Shown piece after piece: positions 25,529 to 38,480 of a DNA stretch of 64,000 nucleotides (the stretch's first letter is position 1; each line of letters starts with the position of its first letter). The DNA lies in assembly GCF_000380185.1 (NCBI RefSeq), contig NZ_KB904746.1:1-64000 (forward strand). Direction: 5' to 3'. The notes below the pieces were generated by a model. It made no database searches. It worked only from the letters and a program-made list of their open reading frames with translations, and had not been told where the DNA came from. A program made the translations under genes and the position numbers. The stretch comes from Thiofilum flexile DSM 14609. GTDB lineage: Bacteria > Pseudomonadota > Gammaproteobacteria > Thiotrichales > Thiotrichaceae.

Positions 25529-28500
25529 ATGTCAACAACACACATCACGGATAAAGAGTCTAGTCCTACTATCCAAGCCCCTGCATTACAACACCCTGAA
25601 TGGCGCGTAATTCGTCGCACGGGCGAAGTGACTCAATTTGATGCGCGTAAAATTTATGTCGCTATGACCAAAGCCTTTTTAGATGTAGAAGGTAGTTCCG
25701 CCTCTGGCTCGGCCCGGATTCATGATGTTGTCACCAGTCTTACTGAAAGAGTGATCGAACAATTAAATCGTCGCACGGCTGAGGGTGCGAATATCCACAT
25801 TGAAGAAATTCAAGATCAAGTCGAACTCGCCATGATGCGAGCGGGTGAGCATAAAGTAGCGCGGAGCTATGTGTTATATCGCGAAGATCGCGCCCGTCTA
25901 CGTGCCGAAAAAGAAGCCAAAACCCGCAAAGGTAAGAAAAAAACCGAAACCACCATTAAAGTTAAATATGCCAATGGTGAGCTACGCCCCCTTGATGAAG
26001 ACCGAATGAAACGCCTGATTGCGGAAGCCGTCGCCGGTTTAGAAGGGGTTGATGCGGAGCAGGTGTATAAAGACGCGCTGCGTAATTTATACGATGGCAT
26101 TACTGAAAAAGAAGTGGCAACTGCGCTCATTATCAGTACCCGTATTTTAATTGATCGTGACCCCAATTATTCCTATGTAGCCTCGCGCATGTTGCTTGAT
26201 ACCTTACGTCGTGAGGTACTCACGCTATTAGAAGGTACTCACACCGAAGCGACTCAAGTCGAAATGCAAGGCCTCTATGCTGAAACCCTACAAAAAGCAC
26301 TGCGTAAAGGGGTGGAGGTCAAACTGCTCAGTGATGAATTGTTGCGCTATGACTTGAACGCATTAGGTGCTGCCATTAAACCTGAGCGCGATTTGCAATT
26401 TACCTATTTAGGTTTGCAGACGCTGTATGATCGCTATTTCCTGCATCACAATGGGGTACGCTTTGAATTACCACAAGTATTCTTTATGCGGGTGGCCATG
26501 GGTCTTGCGATTAATGAAGTCGACCGTGAAGCGCGTACTATTGAATTTTATAACCTGCTCTCTAGTTTTGACTTTATGAGCAGCACCCCTACTCTGTTTA
26601 ACTCTGGCACGCTACGCCCACAATTATCCTCTTGTTATTTAACAACTGTAGGGGATGACTTAGATGGTATCTATAATGCGATTAAAGATAATGCCCTACT
26701 CTCCAAATATGCCGGTGGCCTAGGTAATGACTGGACGCAAGTACGCGGTATGGGAGCACACATTCACGGCACCAATGGCAAATCGCAAGGTGTGGTTCCC
26801 TTCCTGAAAGTAGCCAATGATACTGCAGTAGCTGTCAATCAATGTTTTGCTCCTGAAACCCCATTATTTACAGCCAATGGCATTAAACCTATTAAAGAAA
26901 TCAAAACAGGTGATTTAGTACTAGGTATTAGTGGTACTTACCGCGAAGTGAAGCAAACCATGGTGTATAACCAAACGGATGCTATGGTTGCCGTGGATAT
27001 TAAACACTCCATCGCTCCGGTGCGTGTGACGGCAGGACACCCTATGTATGCCATTCAAGGCATTCCTTTAGGACAAGCGAATGAGCGCACTGCTGAATGG
27101 TTAGCTAAAGGCAAAGTCGCTCCGCAATGGGTAGAGGCGGGTCAACTACAAAAAGGTGATTTTGTTGCCCAAGTTATCCCGACTGAAACCGTCATGGTCG
27201 CGGGCTTCTTCGAAGACGATGCTCGTTTATATGGTATTTTACTCGGTGATGGTCATCTCTCTAAAGAGGGTACACAGTGGGGTGTTTCAGGTAATCCACA
27301 ACAGGATACCCACCTTGAGTTTGTGCGTGCCTATCTCAGTGAAAGAGGTATTCACTCATGGGAAACCACACGTGGCGAAACCTATCTACAAATTCACTGG
27401 GCTAGCGGACGTGGTGCGCTACGGGATGGCAGCACCGGACGTATTGTAGGCGCAGGGGCTGCTACTCTGCCCTTTACTTATGACGACTTATACAATAGCA
27501 AAGGCGAAAAACGCATTGCGCGGCGCTTTAGCCACTTACCCAAAAATCAAACGCTTGCTCTCTTACAAGGCTTGCTTGAAACGGATGGTGGTATTAGTCG
27601 CGGCAAAGAAATTTATTTTACGAGTACCTCTCAAGAGCTAGCTGAGGGTGTGCGTTATCAATGTTTACGTCTAGGCGTTCCTACCGCAGGACAATATCGT
27701 GAGCGGGATAATAGCCATAGCGCTACACGCTCTGACGGCTCTAGCATCCAATTCCAAGGTATTACTAAAACCTACGATATTCGCATTCCAGCACTTGCCC
27801 CTTTGGCTGAACGAGTCAATTGCCAACCTTTAACTAAGCAAAACTGGTTTACCTATAATGGTTGCGTCTATAGCCGAGTACGTAGTGTAGAAGCTATCGA
27901 AGCCGTACCGTTTGTATTTGACCTCATTGTTGAAGGTGATGAGTCATACATGACTACCTCCGGCCTGAACCACAATGGTGGAAAAAGGAAGGGGGCGGTC
28001 TGTGCTTACTTAGAAACCTGGCATATTGATATTGAAGACTTTTTAGAGCTGCGCAAAAACACGGGGGATGAGCGCCGCCGTACTCATGATATGAATACCG
28101 CGAATTGGATTCCCGATTTGTTTATGAAACGGGTTGCGGCTGATCAAGAGTGGACACTTTTCTCACCAGATGAGGTTCCTGATCTACATGATCTGACCGG
28201 TAAAGCCTTTGAAGCGCGTTATACCGAGTATGAAGCGAAAGCGGCACGTGGTGAAATTAAACTACACCGGAAACTACCTGCTCAACAATTATGGCGCAAA
28301 ATGCTAGGGATGCTGTTTGAAACAGGTCATCCTTGGATTACCTTCAAAGACCCTAGCAATATTCGTTATAGCAACCAGCATGTGGGTGTGGTGCACTCTA
28401 GTAATCTTTGCACTGAAATCGCCTTACACACTACCGATGCAGAAATTGCCGTTTGCTTTCCAGCGGGCACACAAATTCTAACTCGTGAGGGTCAACGTGC

Positions 28501-30682
28501 TATTGAAGACTGTGATGGTCGCGAGGTATTAGTACCTTTCTCTGAAAGCTTACAACAGCAAACTCGTTTCCTACCTGCTCGCTTAGTTTTACAAGGCGAG
28601 AAACCTGTTTATGAATTAACTACCAAAAATGGTTTAACCATTGAAGCAACAGAGGATCACCCTTTCTTAGTTCAAAATCCGGTTGATCGTGATAAACCTA
28701 AGACCTATCAATGGAAAAAGCTCAAAGAATTAACAGCGGGTGATTTTATTGCCACACCTTTGACTGAAAATATTTATCCTGAGTTAGGACAACAAGATAC
28801 CGACTTTACTGCTGCGGGTTGGATGCTAGGTGATGGCTGGATGTCTAGTAGCTATGGAGCCTGTTTTGGTCCACACGAGCAATATGCACAAGACTTTGTC
28901 TTACCTATTTTGAATAAGTGGCATCAAAACTCTGAATTAGGCCATAACACGCCCCATCACTATGCCCCTGCCCCTTACACACAACCTAATGGGGTCGTTA
29001 ATTGGCATACGCAACGCGCTGGTTTTATTCGCTATGTCGAAGAGCGCTTTGGTTTTAAAACAGCGACTGGCCCCGAAAAGCGTATAGGCCAACCCATTTG
29101 GCAAGCCAAGCCGGAACAAATCGCCAGTTTCTTATCGGGCTTATTCTCTGCTGATGGTTGTGTAATGGAGGATGCTCGTCGTACTAAAGGTGGTATTACG
29201 GTTTCCCTATCCTCTGCCAGTATTGAGCTGTTACGGGATGTGCAGTTACTGCTCAAACCTTTTGGGGTACATGGTCGCATTCGTGGTGGTCAAGTGAGCG
29301 GGCGTGAGGGTCGTTGGCAGGGTCAATTAGAAGTCAAAGGTGGAGCCTCCATAGTAAACTTTGCCGAGTTAATTGGTTTTAATTTAAGCCCAGTTAAACA
29401 TGAAAAACTTCATAATTACCTTGCTAAACTAACCACCAAACCCGCACTACAACATAGTGCTGTAGTTAGTATTATGCCCAAAGGTATTAAACCTGTTTAT
29501 GACTTAGCATTAACCGAAGATCATAGCTTTATTGCCAATGGCTTAGTGGTACATAACTGCAATCTTGGCTCCGTGAATCTACCCGCCCATACTAGCAATG
29601 GTAAACTCGACCTCGAAAAACTAGAGCGCACCATTACTACCGCCATGCGTATGCTGGATAATGTGATTGACTATAACTACTACAGCGTTCCTCAAGCGCG
29701 GCGCTCTAACCTTAAACATCGTCCCGTCGGTTTAGGGATCATGGGTTTCCAAGACGCTTTGTATGAAATGAATATGGCGTATAGCTCCACCGAAGCGCTG
29801 GAATTTGCCGATCGTAGTATGGAGGCGGTGTCTTATTTTGCCATTCGTGCCTCTAGCCAATTAGCAGCAGAACGGGGCAAATATGCTACCTATCAAGGCT
29901 CGCTCTGGAGTCGCGGGATTCTCCCCATTGACTCACTCGATTTACTCGCTGAAGAGCGTGGTGAGTATTTTAGTGTGGATAAAACACAAACCTTAGATTG
30001 GGATGGTTTACGTCAACTCATCAAAACCCAAGGGATGCGTAATTCCAATGTGATGGCTATCGCACCGACGGCGACCATTTCTAATATTTGTGGTGTATCG
30101 CAATCGATTGAGCCTACCTATCAAAACCTCTTTGTGAAATCGAATCTATCAGGTGAGTTTACGGTCATTAACCCCTATCTCGTGAAAGACCTGAAAGCGA
30201 TGAGCATGTGGGATGAGGTGATGATGAATGATCTCAAGTATTTTGATGGTTCGGTGCAACGCCTAGATCGTGTACCGGAAGCCTTTAAAGCGAAATATGC
30301 CACGGCGTTTGAAATGGATGCACGTTGGTTAGTGGAGGCTGCCAGTCGCCGTCAAAAATGGATTGATCAAGGCCAGTCATTGAACCTGTATATGGCTGAA
30401 CCTAATGGTCAGAAGCTTGATAATCTGTATAAACTGGCTTGGGTACGGGGTTTAAAAACGACCTATTACTTACGTACTTTAGGCGCTACGGGTGCAGAGA
30501 AGACCGGATCAGATGATATGCCTAGTGCAAAAGCAACCAGTAGTGCGCCTAGCAGCTCTAGCCTTCCGGCCTCCTCTGGAAAGCCTAACCTGCACTTAGT
30601 GTCGAAGAATCTAATCTCGGTAGGCTCAGAGGCTCCTAGCGCCTGCTCGCTGCTTGATCCAGATTGTGAAGCTTGTCAGTAA
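25529..30682 (+). CDS. nrdA: class Ia ribonucleoside-diphosphate reductase alpha subunit with two inteins
   Basis: The 1717-codon gene encodes a 971-residue reductase interrupted by inteins at 439-816 and 976-1343. Before the first intein are two ATP-cone domains (about 24-115 and 140-235) and the start of the catalytic barrel with the substrate-site Cys in LSSCYLTT. Between the inteins are VNQ|GGKRKGAVCAYLETWH and NLCTEIAL (active-site Asn, Cys, Glu). After the second are CNLGSVNL with the partner redox Cys, PTATISNICG and a C-terminal DCEAC relay pair. Without inteins it matches Pseudomonas-type NrdA in length. It makes deoxyribonucleotides with NrdB. NrdR boxes lie upstream and a hairpin follows. 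Confidence 0.96.
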   Translation: MSTTHITDKESSPTIQAPALQHPEWRVIRRTGEVTQFDARKIYVAMTKAFLDVEGSSASGSARIHDVVTSLTERVIEQLNRRTAEGANIHIEEIQDQVELAMMRAGEHKVARSYVLYREDRARLRAEKEAKTRKGKKKTETTIKVKYANGELRPLDEDRMKRLIAEAVAGLEGVDAEQVYKDALRNLYDGITEKEVATALIISTRILIDRDPNYSYVASRMLLDTLRREVLTLLEGTHTEATQVEMQGLYAETLQKALRKGVEVKLLSDELLRYDLNALGAAIKPERDLQFTYLGLQTLYDRYFLHHNGVRFELPQVFFMRVAMGLAINEVDREARTIEFYNLLSSFDFMSSTPTLFNSGTLRPQLSSCYLTTVGDDLDGIYNAIKDNALLSKYAGGLGNDWTQVRGMGAHIHGTNGKSQGVVPFLKVANDTAVAVNQCFAPETPLFTANGIKPIKEIKTGDLVLGISGTYREVKQTMVYNQTDAMVAVDIKHSIAPVRVTAGHPMYAIQGIPLGQANERTAEWLAKGKVAPQWVEAGQLQKGDFVAQVIPTETVMVAGFFEDDARLYGILLGDGHLSKEGTQWGVSGNPQQDTHLEFVRAYLSERGIHSWETTRGETYLQIHWASGRGALRDGSTGRIVGAGAATLPFTYDDLYNSKGEKRIARRFSHLPKNQTLALLQGLLETDGGISRGKEIYFTSTSQELAEGVRYQCLRLGVPTAGQYRERDNSHSATRSDGSSIQFQGITKTYDIRIPALAPLAERVNCQPLTKQNWFTYNGCVYSRVRSVEAIEAVPFVFDLIVEGDESYMTTSGLNHNGGKRKGAVCAYLETWHIDIEDFLELRKNTGDERRRTHDMNTANWIPDLFMKRVAADQEWTLFSPDEVPDLHDLTGKAFEARYTEYEAKAARGEIKLHRKLPAQQLWRKMLGMLFETGHPWITFKDPSNIRYSNQHVGVVHSSNLCTEIALHTTDAEIAVCFPAGTQILTREGQRAIEDCDGREVLVPFSESLQQQTRFLPARLVLQGEKPVYELTTKNGLTIEATEDHPFLVQNPVDRDKPKTYQWKKLKELTAGDFIATPLTENIYPELGQQDTDFTAAGWMLGDGWMSSSYGACFGPHEQYAQDFVLPILNKWHQNSELGHNTPHHYAPAPYTQPNGVVNWHTQRAGFIRYVEERFGFKTATGPEKRIGQPIWQAKPEQIASFLSGLFSADGCVMEDARRTKGGITVSLSSASIELLRDVQLLLKPFGVHGRIRGGQVSGREGRWQGQLEVKGGASIVNFAELIGFNLSPVKHEKLHNYLAKLTTKPALQHSAVVSIMPKGIKPVYDLALTEDHSFIANGLVVHNCNLGSVNLPAHTSNGKLDLEKLERTITTAMRMLDNVIDYNYYSVPQARRSNLKHRPVGLGIMGFQDALYEMNMAYSSTEALEFADRSMEAVSYFAIRASSQLAAERGKYATYQGSLWSRGILPIDSLDLLAEERGEYFSVDKTQTLDWDGLRQLIKTQGMRNSNVMAIAPTATISNICGVSQSIEPTYQNLFVKSNLSGEFTVINPYLVKDLKAMSMWDEVMMNDLKYFDGSVQRLDRVPEAFKAKYATAFEMDARWLVEAASRRQKWIDQGQSLNLYMAEPNGQKLDNLYKLAWVRGLKTTYYLRTLGATGAEKTGSDDMPSAKATSSAPSSSSLPASSGKPNLHLVSKNLISVGSEAPSACSLLDPDCEACQ
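26843..27976 (+). mobile_element. NrdA intein 1 with LAGLIDADG homing endonuclease (Gly at +1)
   Basis: The insert of 378 residues begins CFAPETPLFTANG and ends with block G SGLNHN. It contains the block B-type AGHPMYAI with His, and two LAGLIDADG motifs: LYGILLGDGHL (about residue 566 of the precursor) and LLQGLLETDGG (about 685). It splits the conserved host sequence VNQ-GGKRKG. Cys1, penultimate His and terminal Asn are all present, but the first residue after the intein is Gly, not Ser, Thr or Cys. Splicing by the standard branched-ester route should not be possible with Gly at that place. Confidence 0.92.
28454..29557 (+). mobile_element. NrdA intein 2 with LAGLIDADG homing endonuclease
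   Basis: The 368-residue insert begins CFPAGTQILTREG and ends FIANGLVVHN, followed by Cys. Block B appears as TEDHPFLV. Endonuclease motifs are WMLGDGWM (about residue 1100) and FLSGLFSADGCV (about 1205). All standard splicing residues are present. The +1 Cys is the first residue of the host motif CNLGSVNL, the redox Cys of the active site, so the intein uses the reductase's own catalytic Cys as splicing nucleophile. Confidence 0.95.
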
Positions 30683-30736: not shown

Positions 30737-30800
30737 AATTCATGCCTGTTCAAAAGCCCCTACAATTTAGTTGGCATTCAGGTATTGGGAGAGTACAATC

Positions 30801-32945
30801 ATGACCCTAAATTGGGATGACCCACTGGCTACTGCACCAAAAGGTGCCAAAGTAGCCGATAAAACAGTTTCTAAACCCACCCAAGAGGTATGGTCGCATG
30901 AGCAGCGCGAGAGCCAAACTAGCGTTAAGCCGTCAGTTGCGCCAACGCCGTCGTCAAGCACGTCGGTAAGCCAAACCCCGGCGTACTGTGATCAGACGCC
31001 GGTTGAGTTTACCCCGATGCAACCCATTAACCCCGAAGACAAACGGGTGATTAATGGGATGGGCGATATTAATCAGCTTGCGCCGTTTAAATACCCTTGG
31101 GCTTGGGAATTTTTCCTCAATGCCAATAAAAATCATTGGACACCGCTCGACATTAATATGGCGCAGGATGTGCATGACTATCATCACAACCTCAAACCCT
31201 CCGAGCGCCATGTGTATGAAAATGTCCTCGCCTATCTCACCACCTCCGATATTTTAGCTATGCGTAATATTGGGCTGGCGGTGATGGAAAAAATGACCGC
31301 CCCCGAATTGCAAATCTATCAAGCTCGGCAAGTATACGAAGAGGCGTTGCATTGTTTTAAAGAAGGCACTGAAGTACTAACCCCACAGGGCTGGGTCGAT
31401 TTTCGTAATCTAGTGGAGGGGCAAACTGTCGCGCAATATTGCGCAGACGGTACGATTGAGTTTATCCAGCCACTCGGTATCACGCGTGATTATTTTGAAG
31501 GGGATTTAATTCGTTTTAGTTCTAGCGTCTATGAATCTATTGTCACGCCAAATCATCGCTGTGTTGCGCTTGATATACGCAATGATAATAAACTAGTGAT
31601 TCAAACCGCTGATAAAATTAGTGTTCATAATAAAAATATTCCGGTAGCGGGCAAATTAAATAATCCCCAAAGTATTACTCAACTATCTTGGTTAGAGCGT
31701 TTAGCTATTGCTTATCAAGCGGATGGCACCCTAATCAATAGCCATAGCAATGACTTTACCGGTACAGGCTATCGTTTCCATTTCAAACGTATTGATAAAA
31801 TTGAACGTTTAGAAACCATCTTAAATCACTTAGATATTAAGTATTCAAAATATACCTGTGCAGATGAAAGTACTCGCTTTGATATTCCCAAACAAAATCT
31901 TGAATTAGTAAAAGACTTCTCATGGGTTTCGTTCAAAACCATATCTTATGAGTGGATTCGTGAGTTTATCGACGAACTTATGAATTGGGATGGCAGCCGT
32001 TCGAGTGATATGTTGCGTTATGTAACAACCAATCAGAGTTGCTATGATGTGGTTATGGCGTTGGGCGTTATGGCTAATTACCGTTGTGGGGTACATAAAG
32101 CTAAAACCTCCGCCGGTAATATGGCATGGACGATTAATTTTGTAGACCGCTCTTATGTGAGTGGGCGCACGATTGAAAAAACGACCGAAGCCTATTGTGG
32201 TTATGTTTATAGTGTGGGTGTACCGAGCACTATGCTAGTAGTGCGCTATAACGATAAAGTCACCGTGTCGGGCAATACTTGGACCTATCAACACTGCATT
32301 GAAACTATCGGTCTGGATCAAGGCGAAATTTATAATCGCTATCGAGTCGTCCCTGAAATTAATGCCAAAATTCAAATTGCGAATCGGCGTTTAAATGCGG
32401 TGATGCGTTCTGATTTAAATTTAAGAAACGCGGATGATTTACATCAATTCGTGTTGTCTTATGTATTTTTCTCCGGTGTATTTGAAGGCTGTTGGTTTTA
32501 TAATGGCTTTTCGCCGGTTTTTGCCTTGCAGCGCCGTGGTTTAATGAAAGGTACTGCGGAGCAATTGCAATATATTATGCGCGATGAAGTATTGCATTGT
32601 TCCTTTGGTATTCGCGTGGCGCGGCAAATTATGCTGGAAGAAAATGTGCAATTAGACCCTGCCGCTTTGCGGTATATGTGGGATGAGGCGGAAGCAGCAG
32701 AAGCAGGCTATGCTAATTTCTTATTACCGAATCCAATTTTGGGCTATTCCAAAGAGGATCACAGCGAGCAATTCCGCTTTACCGCTAATCGGCGGGCGCG
32801 TCAGTTAGGATTAGATGAACCATTTCCGGGGGCTAAGAATGCTTTGCCGTGGCTTGATGAGCAATCGAATATGCGTAAGGAAAAGAACTTCTTTGAAACT
32901 CGCGTGACCGAATATCAAACAGGTGGCGCGTTAAAGTGGGATTAA
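30801..32945 (+). CDS. nrdB: class Ia ribonucleoside-diphosphate reductase beta subunit with one intein
   Basis: From ATG 30801, preceded by GGGAGAG, the precursor has 714 residues, of which 308 are an intein, leaving a 406-residue NrdB of Pseudomonas type. The di-iron and radical residues are visible: EEALH (Glu and His ligands), then after the intein TWTYQH with the probable radical Tyr, FEGCWFYNGF and RDEVLHCSFG with the other ligands. The N-terminal 65 residues are a low-complexity Thr/Ser/Pro extension. The protein forms the diferric-tyrosyl cofactor that activates NrdA. A terminator follows. Confidence 0.95.
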   Translation: MTLNWDDPLATAPKGAKVADKTVSKPTQEVWSHEQRESQTSVKPSVAPTPSSSTSVSQTPAYCDQTPVEFTPMQPINPEDKRVINGMGDINQLAPFKYPWAWEFFLNANKNHWTPLDINMAQDVHDYHHNLKPSERHVYENVLAYLTTSDILAMRNIGLAVMEKMTAPELQIYQARQVYEEALHCFKEGTEVLTPQGWVDFRNLVEGQTVAQYCADGTIEFIQPLGITRDYFEGDLIRFSSSVYESIVTPNHRCVALDIRNDNKLVIQTADKISVHNKNIPVAGKLNNPQSITQLSWLERLAIAYQADGTLINSHSNDFTGTGYRFHFKRIDKIERLETILNHLDIKYSKYTCADESTRFDIPKQNLELVKDFSWVSFKTISYEWIREFIDELMNWDGSRSSDMLRYVTTNQSCYDVVMALGVMANYRCGVHKAKTSAGNMAWTINFVDRSYVSGRTIEKTTEAYCGYVYSVGVPSTMLVVRYNDKVTVSGNTWTYQHCIETIGLDQGEIYNRYRVVPEINAKIQIANRRLNAVMRSDLNLRNADDLHQFVLSYVFFSGVFEGCWFYNGFSPVFALQRRGLMKGTAEQLQYIMRDEVLHCSFGIRVARQIMLEENVQLDPAALRYMWDEAEAAEAGYANFLLPNPILGYSKEDHSEQFRFTANRRARQLGLDEPFPGAKNALPWLDEQSNMRKEKNFFETRVTEYQTGGALKWD
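31353..32276 (+). mobile_element. NrdB intein between the iron ligand and the radical Tyr
   Basis: The 308-residue insert begins CFKEGTEVLTPQG and ends VTVSGN, followed by Thr. Block B is present as VTPNHRCVA. Endonuclease-like motifs are LAIAYQADGTL and FIDELMNWDGS, both carrying the acidic residue. The penultimate residue is Gly instead of the usual His. The host context is YEEALH-TWTYQH, so the insertion point is directly after the iron-ligand His and four residues before the Tyr that carries the radical. Confidence 0.93.
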
Positions 32946-33196: not shown

Positions 33197-35719
33197 ATGA
33201 GCACTATTAATACGACTTCACCCCGTATCACTACCATTCGTCCAACTACTACTGTTGGCTCTACCGCTACTACAAATCGCTCTAGCTCCACCCCGACTAC
33301 GCCGATACCTACCACACTGACCACACCGGTTCAGAATATTACCCAGCAAACGATGGCTCAAGTGGGGTTGACACCAACGCCCGCTCCTGTGTCTATATCT
33401 ATGCCTACTCCGATCCCACCTCCTATCGGAGTGTGGATGACACCAACGCCTGTACCTACTGCGCCCACGCCTGCTCCCTCAGTAACCCCTACTCCTGTCC
33501 CACGCCCTATCGGATCTGTGGGAATGACACCCGTTCCAGTTGGTGTTATGGAGCCAGGTATCACCGTTTGGGGTTCTACTACTGCTACTGAAGCACGCCA
33601 ACAACTCAGTGATGCACGTACACGCTGGGCTAATAAAGGCATCACAAACTACAGCCTACAAATCAATAGTCAAAATACTAGCGCCACTCCAACCACCATG
33701 ATGGATCTGGGTAAATCGGCTACTGTAGATATTATCAATGGACAAGTGGTGGGTGCCTCGAATCCTTATTCCACTGAGCCTGCTGATACTGCTTTAGCTA
33801 AGCTCACCGTTAATGACTTATTCGATCTAGCCGAAAAAGCGATTAATGCGGGGAACTTCTCCGATATCTATTTTGATGAGCGTGGTATCCCTACCAATAT
33901 TCATGTGGGTGATAAACAATACCAAGCCTATTTACAATCTGTGATCACTCCTGCCACCTCCGGTAATGATACAGTAACGATTGCGACCCCTAACTATCCC
34001 GGTATGGAGCCAGGTGTCACCTACCCGGCACCAGTCCCCGTTACTATTGGGACTCCGGCTTTAGAGAACAAAACCTATTGGGGTGGTGAGGGGCAAGATA
34101 CAGCCGTACTTTCTGGTAAACTCAGTGACTACACCCTGCAAACCCAATCAGATGGCACGATTGTACTCACTCCGATCAATGGCCCCTCAGTTACCCTAAA
34201 AGCCTTTGAAACCTTCCAATTTGCTGACACCAGTTTGACTAAAGAGCAGATCACTGATCCCGCTCAAATGCTTAACTATCGCCGCCAACAATGGCAGTCA
34301 CAGGGTTTGACTAACTATTCGCTCGGTGTGGGAAAATCAACGAATAATAATGATGGTCGTACTATTACTGCCGATGTAATGATGAATTACCAATCCGCCA
34401 AGATTGATGTGATTAATGGGCGCGTGGTCAATGCTGAAACCTCTGATATGGGTAATACAACGCTCAGCCCAGAACTAGCAAATATGACCATTGACTCCCT
34501 CTTTGACATGGCGCAACAAGCCATTAACCGTGGCGAGAAAGTTGATATTCAATACAGTAATACAGGCATCCCTCAGAGTGTGCGCATCGGTAGCACCCAA
34601 TATCATGCCAATATTCACTCTAAAATCACGGCAGGTACGACAGGGAATGATACTTTCACCGCTCAATTTACGCCTTACTCTGCTACAACCCCGTATAGCC
34701 TCCCAGAAAATACTCGCTATGTGGGCGACAGCGGCGACGATACCTTAAAGATAAATGGGCGCTTACAGGATTTTCAAATAAACCAAAACTCTACGACCCA
34801 AAATGGCTCGTTTACTATTTATAACTCCAGTAATAATAGCCCCGCCATTTCAACCAGTGGCATAGAGCATTTGCAATTTAATGACACGACAATTGATGCG
34901 GCTCAACTTAAACCACAAATGCTCAATTATTATCAACAGCAATGGAATAATGCGCCCTTAAAAGACTATACCTTAGAGCTGACTAAAAATACGGCTCCCA
35001 CTATCCCCACTGCTACTACTACCGTGACAACACCTACTTCTCCTATTGCCAACCCTGATAGTAATCGCCGTACCATTATTGAGGTTAAAAACGGACAAAT
35101 TGCCTCAATAACAGCTAAAGATTATATGGGTAATACGCTCACACCTGATCCAGAGTTTGCTAATTTTACGGTGGAGAAACTATTTGATTTAGCCCAACAA
35201 GGTTTAGCGGCTAATGATAAAAGTACTGTTTACTATGACTCGAAAAAATCCTATCCGCAATCTATTCAAGTGGCGGGGAATAATGGTAATACCACCTATT
35301 ACAATGCTCAAGTGAGAGTACCGGGCGAGCCTGAAAATATATTTGGCTATGCCACTACCACAGGTGGAATGGGTAGTTTTGGAACTGCGACGACAGGTAC
35401 AACAGGTGGCATTATTCCAACTCCAGTACCAACGCCGACTACCCCTAGCATCGCTCCCCCCTCACAGGGAACTGCGACGGGAGCAACCCCGACTAGTGGC
35501 AGCATAGCTACCCCGACTCCTACGGCTAACGGTGCTACCTCTACTCATCAAGGTAGCAATAATGCTAATGCCAATCGCCCTAAAATCGATCCGCAGGTAT
35601 TAACTCGCTTATTAACCGCGCTGATTCAGTTGATTAAAAACATGCAAGCTAATAATCAAACCAATACCGCGCATAATAATACGGTGAATAGCAACGCTTC
35701 TCAGCGTATTCGTAATTAA
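33197..35719 (+). CDS. modular DUF6174/RTX-like protein, paralogue 1
   Basis: An 840-residue protein without an N-terminal signal peptide. After a Thr/Pro-rich lead (MSTINTTSPR, then TPVQNITQQT and a TPTP-rich stretch to about residue 115) come three DUF6174-like units, each opening with RRxWxxxGxxxYSL and containing the VINGxVVxA and LFDLAxxAI blocks. Between them lie two RTX-like modules with degenerate Gly/Asp repeats (GGEGQDTAVLSGKLSDY and GDSGDDTLKINGRLQDF) and FQFADTS/LQFNDTT ends. A second Pro/Thr linker precedes a conserved helical end, RPKIDPQVLTRLLTALIQLI. The design suggests export by type I secretion, with no transporter here. AAGGAAG precedes the ATG. Confidence 0.85.
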   Translation: MSTINTTSPRITTIRPTTTVGSTATTNRSSSTPTTPIPTTLTTPVQNITQQTMAQVGLTPTPAPVSISMPTPIPPPIGVWMTPTPVPTAPTPAPSVTPTPVPRPIGSVGMTPVPVGVMEPGITVWGSTTATEARQQLSDARTRWANKGITNYSLQINSQNTSATPTTMMDLGKSATVDIINGQVVGASNPYSTEPADTALAKLTVNDLFDLAEKAINAGNFSDIYFDERGIPTNIHVGDKQYQAYLQSVITPATSGNDTVTIATPNYPGMEPGVTYPAPVPVTIGTPALENKTYWGGEGQDTAVLSGKLSDYTLQTQSDGTIVLTPINGPSVTLKAFETFQFADTSLTKEQITDPAQMLNYRRQQWQSQGLTNYSLGVGKSTNNNDGRTITADVMMNYQSAKIDVINGRVVNAETSDMGNTTLSPELANMTIDSLFDMAQQAINRGEKVDIQYSNTGIPQSVRIGSTQYHANIHSKITAGTTGNDTFTAQFTPYSATTPYSLPENTRYVGDSGDDTLKINGRLQDFQINQNSTTQNGSFTIYNSSNNSPAISTSGIEHLQFNDTTIDAAQLKPQMLNYYQQQWNNAPLKDYTLELTKNTAPTIPTATTTVTTPTSPIANPDSNRRTIIEVKNGQIASITAKDYMGNTLTPDPEFANFTVEKLFDLAQQGLAANDKSTVYYDSKKSYPQSIQVAGNNGNTTYYNAQVRVPGEPENIFGYATTTGGMGSFGTATTGTTGGIIPTPVPTPTTPSIAPPSQGTATGATPTSGSIATPTPTANGATSTHQGSNNANANRPKIDPQVLTRLLTALIQLIKNMQANNQTNTAHNNTVNSNASQRIRN

Positions 35720-36107: not shown

Positions 36108-38480
36108 ATGAGCACTATTAATACAACTCGTATCAATATCCCCCGTACTAACCCTACTACCGTAGCGGCTAGTAATAATGCGGCGACTAATCGCACGAGA
36201 TCAACTACAACAGCCCCTATACCTACCACACTGAGCACACCCGTTCAGAACATTACCCAACAAACCACGGCTCAAGTAGGACAACTCACACCGACTCCCG
36301 TTGTACCCATCCGGCCTACCACCACTACAGGCGCTACAGGTTTCACTAGTAGTACTTCTGTACCCGTTGTACCCGGATCTGTTGGTATAGTAGGGCCTGG
36401 TGTTGTTTGGTCCACTGGCCCTGCTACTGCAGCCGAGGCACGCCAACAGCTCAGTGATGCACGGACACGTTGGGCAAACAAAGGGATTACTAATTACTCG
36501 TTAAGCCTCAATAATTTTAGTGAAGCCATAGGTACAGGAGGAAGTGCAACCGTCGATGTTATCAATGGGCAAGCTGTGAGTGCTTCTAATCCTTATTCAA
36601 CGGTGCCTGTCGATACCGCCCTAGCCAAGTTGACCGTTAATGACCTATTCGACCTAGCCGAGAAAGCGATTAATGCGGGGAATTTCTCCAATCTCTATTT
36701 TGATGATCGTGGTATTCCTACCAATATTCGTATTGGTGATAAACAATATTCTGCGTATTTACAATCTATTATCATACCTGCGACCGCTGGTAATGATACC
36801 GTCACTATTGCGACCCCTAGTTATCAGAACCCTACCACAGGAGAGATGATTTTTAATCCTTCAGATAGCAAAACCTATTGGGGTGGTGAAGGGCAAGATA
36901 CTGCCGTCTTTTCAGGTAAACTCAGCGATTACTCTATACAGACCCAATCGGATGGATCGATTATAGTAGCCCCCTTCAATGGTCAACCTGCCACGATTAA
37001 AGGCTTTGAAACGCTGCGTTTTGCTGATACCAGCATGACCAAAGAGCAGCTCACTGATCCCGCTCAAATGCTCAATTACCGCCGTCAACAATGGCAGTCA
37101 CAGGGGTTGAATAACTATTCGCTCATTGTCTCAAAATCAACTGGTTCTGAGCCATCATCCATCTCTAGCACTACGCCCATCCCGATATTAGCGACAAACT
37201 TTCAAACCGCTCAGCTCGATATTGTCAATGGACGGGTATTAAATGCTAATGCGATGGAGAACAGTAATAACAACACTCCACTTAGCCCTGATTTGGCGAA
37301 TATGACCGTTGATAACCTATTTGATATGGCACAACAAGCCATTAATCGGGGTGAGAAGGTTGATATTCAGTATGATTATAGAGGTATCCCTAATAGTGTG
37401 CGGATAGGTAGCACACACTATAGTGCACATATTCAATCCAAAATTGTAGCGGGCACCACAGGGGATGATAATTTCACTGCTCAATTCACCTCCTATCCTA
37501 GTACTATGATGCCCTATACAGAACTAGGAGAAACTCGCTATGTAGGGAATAGCGGCAATGACACTTTAAAGATTAATGGGCGTTTACAGGATTTTTATGT
37601 CTCTCAATCTCCTGCTCAAAACGGCTCATTTAATATTTTTAGCTCGACTAACAATGCTTTCCCCGTCTCTACTAGTAGCATAGAGCGTTTACAATTTAAT
37701 GACGTGAGTATTGATAGCGCTCAATATAAATCGCAAATACTCAATTATTATCAACAACAATGGAATAATGCGCCTTTAAAAGACTATACCTTAGAGCTGA
37801 CTAAAAACACCTCTGACCCAGTTAGTGCTTGGTCGTCCTCTTATCATGTTCCTGATTACAGTCGCACTATTATTGAGGTGAAAAATGGGCAAGTGGCCTC
37901 GGTAACAGCCAAAGATATGCAGGGCAATACCGCTACACCTGATCCTGAATTTGCCAACTTTACCGTGGATAAACTCTTTAGCTTAGCCCAACAAAGCATA
38001 GCCGCTAATGATAAAGCGGAAATTTTCTATAGCTCACGCAGACCCTACCCGCAATCGATTCAGACCACTGATAATAATGGTAAATCCACCTATTACAGTG
38101 CTCAAGTGAAAGTGGCGGGTGAGCCAGAAGAGATGAATGCTATCGCTTATGGTACGATAACAATAGGTGGAGGTGGTGCTATACCTACACCAGTAACACC
38201 CCCCACCGTTGCGGTGCCACCACGGGGTAATACAACGACTCCCACAACAGGCACAACGACCTCTGGTAGTACACCTACTCCAGTCAGTACCACCACAGGC
38301 CATACTAACTCGGCTTCTAATACAGCTAATGCCAATCGCCCTAAAATCGATCCGCAGGTATTAACTCGTTTATTAACCGCACTGATTCAATTGATTAAAA
38401 ATATGCAAGCTAATAATCAAACCAATACCGCGCATAATAATGCAGCGAATAATAACGCCGCTCAACGTATCCGTAATTAA
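36108..38480 (+). CDS. modular DUF6174/RTX-like protein, paralogue 2
   Basis: The 790-residue product has the same plan as the gene before it: MSTINTTRINIPR lead, a shorter Thr/Pro-rich part, three DUF6174-like units (ARTRWANKGITNYSL, RRQQWQSQGLNNYSL, YQQQWNNAPLKDYTL), two intervening Gly/Asp modules (GGEGQDTAVFSGKLSDY, GNSGNDTLKINGRLQDF), a Pro/Thr linker and the nearly identical C-terminal helix RPKIDPQVLTRLLTALIQLI with an Asn-rich tail. Units two and three and the C-terminus are closest to paralogue 1, the N-terminal linker differs most. No signal peptide is present. It has its own promoter-like leader with the shared palindrome. Confidence 0.85.
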   Translation: MSTINTTRINIPRTNPTTVAASNNAATNRTRSTTTAPIPTTLSTPVQNITQQTTAQVGQLTPTPVVPIRPTTTTGATGFTSSTSVPVVPGSVGIVGPGVVWSTGPATAAEARQQLSDARTRWANKGITNYSLSLNNFSEAIGTGGSATVDVINGQAVSASNPYSTVPVDTALAKLTVNDLFDLAEKAINAGNFSNLYFDDRGIPTNIRIGDKQYSAYLQSIIIPATAGNDTVTIATPSYQNPTTGEMIFNPSDSKTYWGGEGQDTAVFSGKLSDYSIQTQSDGSIIVAPFNGQPATIKGFETLRFADTSMTKEQLTDPAQMLNYRRQQWQSQGLNNYSLIVSKSTGSEPSSISSTTPIPILATNFQTAQLDIVNGRVLNANAMENSNNNTPLSPDLANMTVDNLFDMAQQAINRGEKVDIQYDYRGIPNSVRIGSTHYSAHIQSKIVAGTTGDDNFTAQFTSYPSTMMPYTELGETRYVGNSGNDTLKINGRLQDFYVSQSPAQNGSFNIFSSTNNAFPVSTSSIERLQFNDVSIDSAQYKSQILNYYQQQWNNAPLKDYTLELTKNTSDPVSAWSSSYHVPDYSRTIIEVKNGQVASVTAKDMQGNTATPDPEFANFTVDKLFSLAQQSIAANDKAEIFYSSRRPYPQSIQTTDNNGKSTYYSAQVKVAGEPEEMNAIAYGTITIGGGGAIPTPVTPPTVAVPPRGNTTTPTTGTTTSGSTPTPVSTTTGHTNSASNTANANRPKIDPQVLTRLLTALIQLIKNMQANNQTNTAHNNAANNNAAQRIRN

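Follow-up and report, generated by a model that had tools for sequence, protein, structure and literature searches.

How does an intein without a penultimate histidine leave a ribonucleotide reductase (RNR) subunit that it splits between a metal ligand and the tyrosine at the radical position, and why is it inserted there? The nrdB gene of Thiofilum flexile DSM 14609 raises this question. The gene lies in the window analyzed here, a stretch of 64,000 nucleotides (contig NZ_KB904746.1, positions 1 to 64,000). The initial annotation had placed an intein at 31353-32276 and had pointed to its penultimate Gly (SGN ending), so that Asn cyclization has to proceed with no His at that position. Both coordinates proved exact, and the sequence agrees with this description.

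Translation of nrdB from the ATG at 30801 gives a precursor of 714 amino acids, the alternative TTG at 30771 gives one of 724 amino acids, and the stop codon is located at 32943-32945. The insert is in frame and comprises 308 codons, with the junctions reading ...QARQVYEEALH / CFKEGTEVLT...VTVSGN / TWTYQHCIETIG... Its GC content is 40.4%, that of the N-extein 49.6%, and that of the C-extein 43.8%. A Pfam scan assigned PF00268 to the precursor with an E value of 1.4e-54. The match is confined to the N- and C-exteins (model positions 2-95 and 98-276, respectively), each over the cut-off, and these two pieces are the sole PF00268 matches in the genome (71 contigs, listed as 100% complete). NF005550 scored the precursor with 319.6 bits, above its cut-off of 309. 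The two family models, together with the full ligand set described below, identify the host protein as a class I RNR beta subunit. The features of the locus are listed in Table 1.

Table 1. Features of the intein-bearing nrdB gene, in window coordinates.
Feature	Position	Strand	Evidence
nrdB precursor gene, class I ribonucleotide reductase beta subunit	30801..32945	+	single open frame
N-extein, ends YEEALH	30801..31352	+	frame translation and alignment
Ligand codons in the N-extein: Asp, Glu, His	31248-31250; 31341-31343; 31350-31352	+	alignment to solved R2
Intein, 308 amino acids, C1...SGN	31353..32276	+	frame, same-site homologues, predicted fold
Cys1, N-terminal nucleophile	31353..31355	+	Cys in 64/64 members surveyed
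Block B: Thr65 (B:7), His68 (B:10), Arg69 (B:11)	31545..31559	+	Thr 62/64, His 64/64, Arg 43/64
Inserted LAGLIDADG-type homing endonuclease domain	31665..32147 (approximate, by eye from the model)	+	I-DmoI and full-length intein fold matches
Catalytic-type acids of the endonuclease domain: Asp124, Asp213	31722-31724; 31989-31991	+	family survey
Block F position 4: Ser287	32211..32213	+	family mostly Cys there
Penultimate Gly307 and terminal Asn308	32271..32276	+	GN 63/64, QN 1/64
C-extein; +1 Thr at 32277-32279	32277..32942	+	frame translation and alignment
Radical-position Tyr and ligand codons in the C-extein: Tyr, Glu, Glu, His	32286-32288; 32484-32486; 32586-32588; 32595-32597	+	alignment

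The closest solved chains to the window NrdB are 6y2n, 2ani, and 1syy. Alignment placed Asp150, Glu181, and His184 of the precursor at residues 89, 120, and 123 of 2ani, and Tyr496, Glu562, Glu596, and His599 at residues 127, 193, 227, and 230. We take 2ani to be the R2 protein of Chlamydia and these residues to be its metal ligands and radical-site position. All seven positions were identical in 31 of 31 NrdB proteins, 26 with an empty site and 5 with an intein; four of the 30 empty loci described below had no row longer than 250 amino acids and were left out of this comparison. The earlier statement that the split follows a predicted iron-binding His and falls four residues ahead of the Tyr is thus borne out. 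The radical place is occupied by Phe in 6y2n and by Tyr496 in the window NrdB, and the first ligand is Asp150 versus Glu89 in 2ani. A class Ic R2 of the Chlamydia type was therefore rejected, and a Tyr-radical enzyme appears to be the better guess because Tyr is present at the radical place and Asp is the first ligand.

Analysis of the insert revealed the sequence features of a class 1 intein, namely, Cys1, a block B TxxH motif (T65-PN-H68), the C-terminal Asn308, and Thr at +1, together with a predicted Hint fold. Two LAGLIDADG-type motifs, AYQADG and NWDG, contain Asp124 and Asp213. A class 3 mechanism was considered and rejected; Cys1 is present, and the positions of the WCT-type triplet read Cys70, Ser287, and Ser306. 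Among the NCBIfam and Pfam models for inteins and endonucleases, none scores the insert above its threshold: TIGR01445 scores 14.9 bits (cut-off, 24.5), PF14890 is not listed, and no Pfam LAGLIDADG model is listed up to an E value of 1. These curated models are detection aids and no defining trait of inteins. In L021 and L091, which are viral relatives, PF14890 likewise stays under its threshold.

Three further genomes of the class have a full-length homologue, 44 to 49% identical, in exactly this position of NrdB. Those with 49% identity are L004 and L016 (Thiotrichaceae MAG) as well as L005 and L017 (gammaproteobacterial MAG), and L006, from the same class, has 44% identity; L016 and L017, which have the junctions, length, and identity of L004 and L005, did not enter the count as separate members. 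A further same-site member with 41% identity (L018) was found in a Campylobacteraceae MAG within a quite different NrdB (EEALH/...SGN/SQSY). Among 39 relatives, 2 have a homologue, and among 369 genomes sampled from the class, 5 have one, the window genome being inside both counts; three of these five are at the NrdB site and two are in other proteins. In relatives, all 30 NrdB loci that were retrieved continue through the site without interruption. NrdB matches were present in 33 of the 39 relatives and gave 36 match rows, 30 of which supplied these loci; of the remaining six, four are the paired pieces of the two carriers, one is a further NrdB, and one is the second NrdB of genome G005. At L048, which is among these empty loci, the +1 residue is Val, with which the window intein is incompatible. 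Genome G005, which carries L004, encodes its second NrdB (C96, open frame of 378 amino acids) without interruption beside the intein-bearing copy. The same-site full-length homologues in three other genomes and the uninterrupted loci of the relatives (30/30) argue that the insert is not a chance feature.

The intein was modeled with AlphaFold2 from 21 sequences, which gave a pLDDT of 94.8. The model matches solved intact inteins over 277 to 294 residues (7qsu, Z of 22.9 and 3.9 Å over 291 residues; 1dq3, Z of 21.9 and 3.2 Å over 294 residues), and the predicted endonuclease fold, also analyzed with Foldseek, matches I-DmoI. Superposition of the splicing domain on AceL NrdHF (6zgq_B) gave a Z of 21.8 and 1.5 Å over 144 of 154 residues at 17% identity. 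The same protein was the only clear match when the family profile was compared with the Protein Data Bank (6zgq, E value of 3e-12); the next match, with an E value of 0.01, is an unrelated protein.

To place the SGN ending in context, 75 sequences were collapsed to 64 non-identical family members and surveyed. A tblastn search of phages yielded 197 records, of which 120 cover at least 80% of the query, all with less than 60% identity; they are annotated as NAMPT, NrdA, NrdB, primase, helicase, and others. Seven of the 197 matching records, picked for different host genes, entered the survey. One plasmid record also matched. A scan of viral contigs with the single protein gave no match, and the viral members were found by alignment-based searches. 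From the first set of this search, 15 of 23 loci entered the survey; L023, L030, L034, and L035 were left out as near-copies (the L023 contig re-entered as L094), L042 as partial, and L039 to L041 because the match was N-terminal only, although they align over the full length with L004 as the query. A larger locus search retained 80 of 96 matching loci, of which the 45 full-length ones were surveyed and the other 35 stayed outside the survey.

All 64 members have Cys1, the block B His, and a terminal Asn. The penultimate residue is Gly in 63 members and Gln in one. Block F position 4 is Cys in 56, Ser in 6, and Gly in 2, position 124 is Asp in 57, Glu in 6, and Asn in 1, and Asp213 is present in 64 of 64. 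The initial annotation had implied that the Gly ending is exceptional and had proposed a survey of the SGN ending and the insertion point. The first idea finds no support: GN is the norm of the family, and splicing with a penultimate Gly is already in print for the mycobacteriophage Bethlehem RDF intein (PMC5050341) and for AceL NrdHF (PMC7891396). The survey itself found GN to be near-universal and the exact site to be occupied in seven inteins. The Gly ending thus characterizes a large intein family with mostly viral members and is no peculiarity of the window gene. Outside the survey, L039 ends with GN, L040 and L041 end with SN, and all three have Asp at block F position 4; judged from these sequences, close neighbours of the family with other endings exist. 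L006 is the sole member of the 64 with a penultimate Gln and also the sole one with Trp at B:11, which, as a single event, is only suggestive of a possible compensating change.

Ser at block F position 4 is found in all five cellular same-site members. It was rejected as a mark of the site, since the viral same-site members L086 and L088 have Cys and Gly, respectively, and the NAMPT-like L097 also has Ser. According to PMC4031507, this position is most commonly Asp, then Cys, then Trp. Most family members hold both possible first nucleophiles, Cys1 and the block F Cys, whereas the window intein has Cys1 alone. A hidden block F His was also rejected as a substitute helper: the window intein has no His after residue 248, i.e., none in its last 60 residues. 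Helper His residues are absent from the last 40 residues of four of the five cellular same-site members; in the fifth, L018, which belongs to this clade, a single His occupies the tenth position from the intein end. Arg69 is present in four of the five, the exception being L006 with Trp.

Two characterized inteins indicate how cyclization can proceed under these conditions. AceL NrdHF interrupts an RNR beta gene on a possible phage contig, with SIRDE on one flank and SMHVE on the other. Both helper histidines are missing, Gly145 precedes Asn146, and splicing takes no more than a few minutes (PMC7891396). In that report, the G145H mutant is inactive, and R69A is slower yet nearly complete; its authors propose that Arg69, which is close enough to the C-terminal scissile carbonyl for a hydrogen bond, may compensate (PMC7891396). 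The Bethlehem RDF intein, a class 1 intein with a penultimate Gly, splices completely, and replacement of the Gly by His slows it (PMC5050341, Kelley et al.); compared by its description, it resides in another host protein than the window intein. The model of the window intein resembles AceL NrdHF-1-1 (6zgq) in its predicted Hint fold, its penultimate Gly, the missing block F and block G histidines, and the identical numbering of His68-Arg69, and both inteins are located at an E-x-x-H stretch of an RNR beta gene. In contrast to the contiguous window intein with its Cys1, Ser at F:4, and Thr+1, AceL NrdHF is split, is without a LAGLIDADG domain, belongs to class 3 (Ala1, Cys at F:4), and is followed by Ser+1. 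Judged by its flanks, it is located at the second R2 motif, and the window intein is located at the first. AceL NrdHF uses the class 3 route, so its details carry over to a class 1 member by inference.

These data point to the following scheme. The insert would be a mobile class 1 intein that carries a LAGLIDADG-type endonuclease and has homed into the E-x-x-H-x-x-x-Y codons of nrdB, the first metal-ligand motif. Splicing would start with an acyl shift at Cys1 assisted by Thr65 and His68 and would continue with transfer to Thr+1, cyclization of Asn308, and ligation to ...EEALHTWTYQH... With no His in block G or block F, cyclization would depend on another helper, most likely Arg69, which adjoins the block B His, as in the AceL NrdHF proposal, and the small Gly may leave room for it. 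The assignment of the insert to class 1 of a phage-dominated family, with predicted splicing, is almost certainly correct, and the scheme as a whole, a homed class 1 intein of this family that splices, is very probable. For Arg69 as the main substitute for the helper histidines, the chances are about even. Arg is found in just 43 of the 64 members, so it can be no general requirement, and a strict need for Arg69 was rejected on this count. The Ser that replaces the block F Cys or Asp could slow a splicing step. We infer splicing in vivo, the role of Arg69, present endonuclease activity, and the transfer route from these comparisons.

The distribution of the intein was analyzed with respect to homing. 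The exact site is used by seven inteins, five cellular and two on viral contigs, whose R2 genes read YEEAIH/THSYQH (L086) and TEEQIH/SLSYS (L088). A careful tree built from 30 inteins unites the five cellular members at this site (100/98), and 8 of 500 label shuffles gave values as low. In a quick-search tree of 64 inteins, all seven form one clade (SH-aLRT, 90; 0 of 500 shuffles as low), and the five-member cellular group has an SH-aLRT of 63. On the extein tree, the five carriers need five changes, four of which are forced by well-supported branches, and the carriers are no better grouped than shuffled labels; this tree contains two very long branches (L018 and L048), the placement of which is unsure. 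The nearest host protein to the window NrdB is 90% identical and has an empty site. Same-site inteins that form one clade and carriers that are scattered among empty NrdB proteins give the pattern expected of site-specific homing between lineages, and viruses would be among the carriers.

Other family members are inserted around the R2 metal-ligand motifs as well, the first and second motif being assigned by eye. At the first motif, after Glu, are phiTE (WAFSE/TIHSRSY) and L102 (NME/CIHALSY), and just ahead of this motif is L091 (AE/CEVRHADAY). At the second motif are PA-SR01 (DEA/CH), PTm1 (DEN/CH), L021 (EE/CIH), and L027 (I/CRDENLH). The frames of L086, L088, L021, L027, L091, and L102 all exceed the PF00268 cut-off (6/6). 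The viral NrdB members phiTE (E/TIHSRSY), PA-SR01, and PTm1 share the family, the GN ending, and the location in R2 metal-ligand motifs with the window intein but use other sites, whereas L086 and L088 share its site exactly. At F:4, the viral NrdB members have Cys (Gly in L088) where the window intein has Ser. The NrdB intein of phage CB7, a phiTE relative, is called one without a homing endonuclease by the authors of PMC7344957. R2 inteins and introns cluster near metal-ligand residues, as described by Rehling et al. (PMC8772380).

That article also describes the R2 intein of Aquifex aeolicus, which, like the window intein, resides in a bacterial chromosomal NrdB among the di-iron ligands and has a LAGLIDADG-type endonuclease. 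It splices in Escherichia coli (PMC8772380). Compared by its description, it is inserted between Glu228 and His231 of the second motif (Leu229/Cys230), whereas the window intein follows the first His. The His/Thr site of the window intein is not named in the accessible text of PMC8772380, PMC3653736, and PMC7344957; Figure S4 of PMC8772380, which lay outside this comparison, marks nearby phage R2 inteins. The window intein adds a member to an already known family of phage-linked inteins, at a type of site that is likewise known. Its site in bacterial chromosomes and the Ser at block F position 4 are mildly new.

The dependence of the organism on splicing was assessed from its RNR genes. The nrdA gene (25529-30682) precedes nrdB and is the sole PF02867 gene in the genome; PF02867 also covers class II enzymes. 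An NRDD gene was not found in the genome by a search that detects the one of E. coli. No second RNR was therefore found (one NrdB, one PF02867 gene, no NRDD). This is the strongest indirect evidence of a working intein, and splicing of the nrdB intein is very likely for this reason. With a single RNR found, dNTP synthesis needs nrdB splicing, unless another route exists, and nrdB splicing is very likely essential for the organism.

Two further inteins are encoded in nrdA on the same strand (+). The first (26843-27976, 378 amino acids) reads AVNQ/CFAPETPLF...LNHN/GGKRKGA and has Gly and no Cys, Ser, or Thr at +1. Homologues of it occur in 8 of 39 genomes, including its own, with HN/GG as the C junction in all eight (10 loci, L073 to L082, three of them from one genome; C junctions read). 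Its +1 position without a nucleophile recalls type A BIL domains, as described in PMC4031507, and the only NrdA found in the genome carries this intein despite the BIL-like +1. The second (28454-29557, 368 amino acids) has the canonical junction VVHN/CNLGSVNL. Among the three inteins of nrdA and nrdB, only the nrdB one ends with GN, and three splicing events would be needed for the sole RNR found. Downstream of nrdB, the frames 33197-35719 and 36108-38480 (+; 840 and 790 amino acids) resemble each other, have segments such as RWANKGITNYSL and LNYYQQQWNNAPLKDYTLELTKNT in common, and apparently form a tandem duplicate.

A decayed intein that no longer splices would leave NrdB as a pseudogene or as a protein that works in two pieces. 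The helper histidines and the block F Asp or Cys are indeed all missing, and the insert scores below the curated model cut-offs. Against this stand the intact nucleophiles and extein ligands, the genome in which no second RNR was found, and the open frames kept in all five cellular same-site members, and decay is extremely doubtful.

For a splicing intein, the timing of cofactor assembly has to be considered. According to the initial annotation, no cofactor can arise in the precursor before splicing, and the intein was regarded as special through its Gly ending. The insert does part a His ligand from the radical-position Tyr, but Gly is the family norm (63/64), and AceL NrdHF splices so fast (PMC7891396) that a switch would have little time to act, provided that the window intein has a similar speed. 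The authors of the Aquifex study deduce that iron is loaded before the intein leaves (PMC8772380). The certainty that no cofactor forms before splicing is therefore not warranted, and such an off-switch is quite improbable. A model of the whole precursor, made to judge whether the R2 core can fold around the intein, was of low quality (mean pLDDT, 50.8).

The opposite role, in which iron is loaded while the intein holds the site open and splicing then closes it, so that timing affects cofactor assembly, is suggested by the Aquifex R2, for which the intein-bearing construct gave more iron and twice the activity (PMC8772380); among R2 inteins, this is the sole one for which metal data were found. 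The repeated occurrence of family relatives beside R2 metal ligands would fit this role. However, the Aquifex effect was seen in heterologous expression and with an intein at a different site, and homing alone explains insertion at a conserved site. Moreover, two other inteins are located in nrdA, and the family also occurs in NAMPT and primase, where a metal-loading logic fails. An assembly aid is thus unlikely. A far-reaching version, in which the same-site lineage is a His-less class 1 type that derived its Ser at F:4 from ancestors with Cys and in which splicing of an obligate RNR is coupled to di-iron loading as an assembly or iron-sensing checkpoint, is highly improbable.

The reading as a homed class 1 intein of a phage-dominated family thus offers a probable answer to the question. 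A GN ending does not signal a defect; it marks a large intein family borne by phages. The position among the metal ligands would follow from homing into highly conserved codons. The locus adds an insertion site in bacterial chromosomes that is tied to viral contigs at the identical site. The natural class 1 set of Ser at F:4, Gly at G:6, and Arg at B:11 would provide a system for Asn cyclization without helper histidines.
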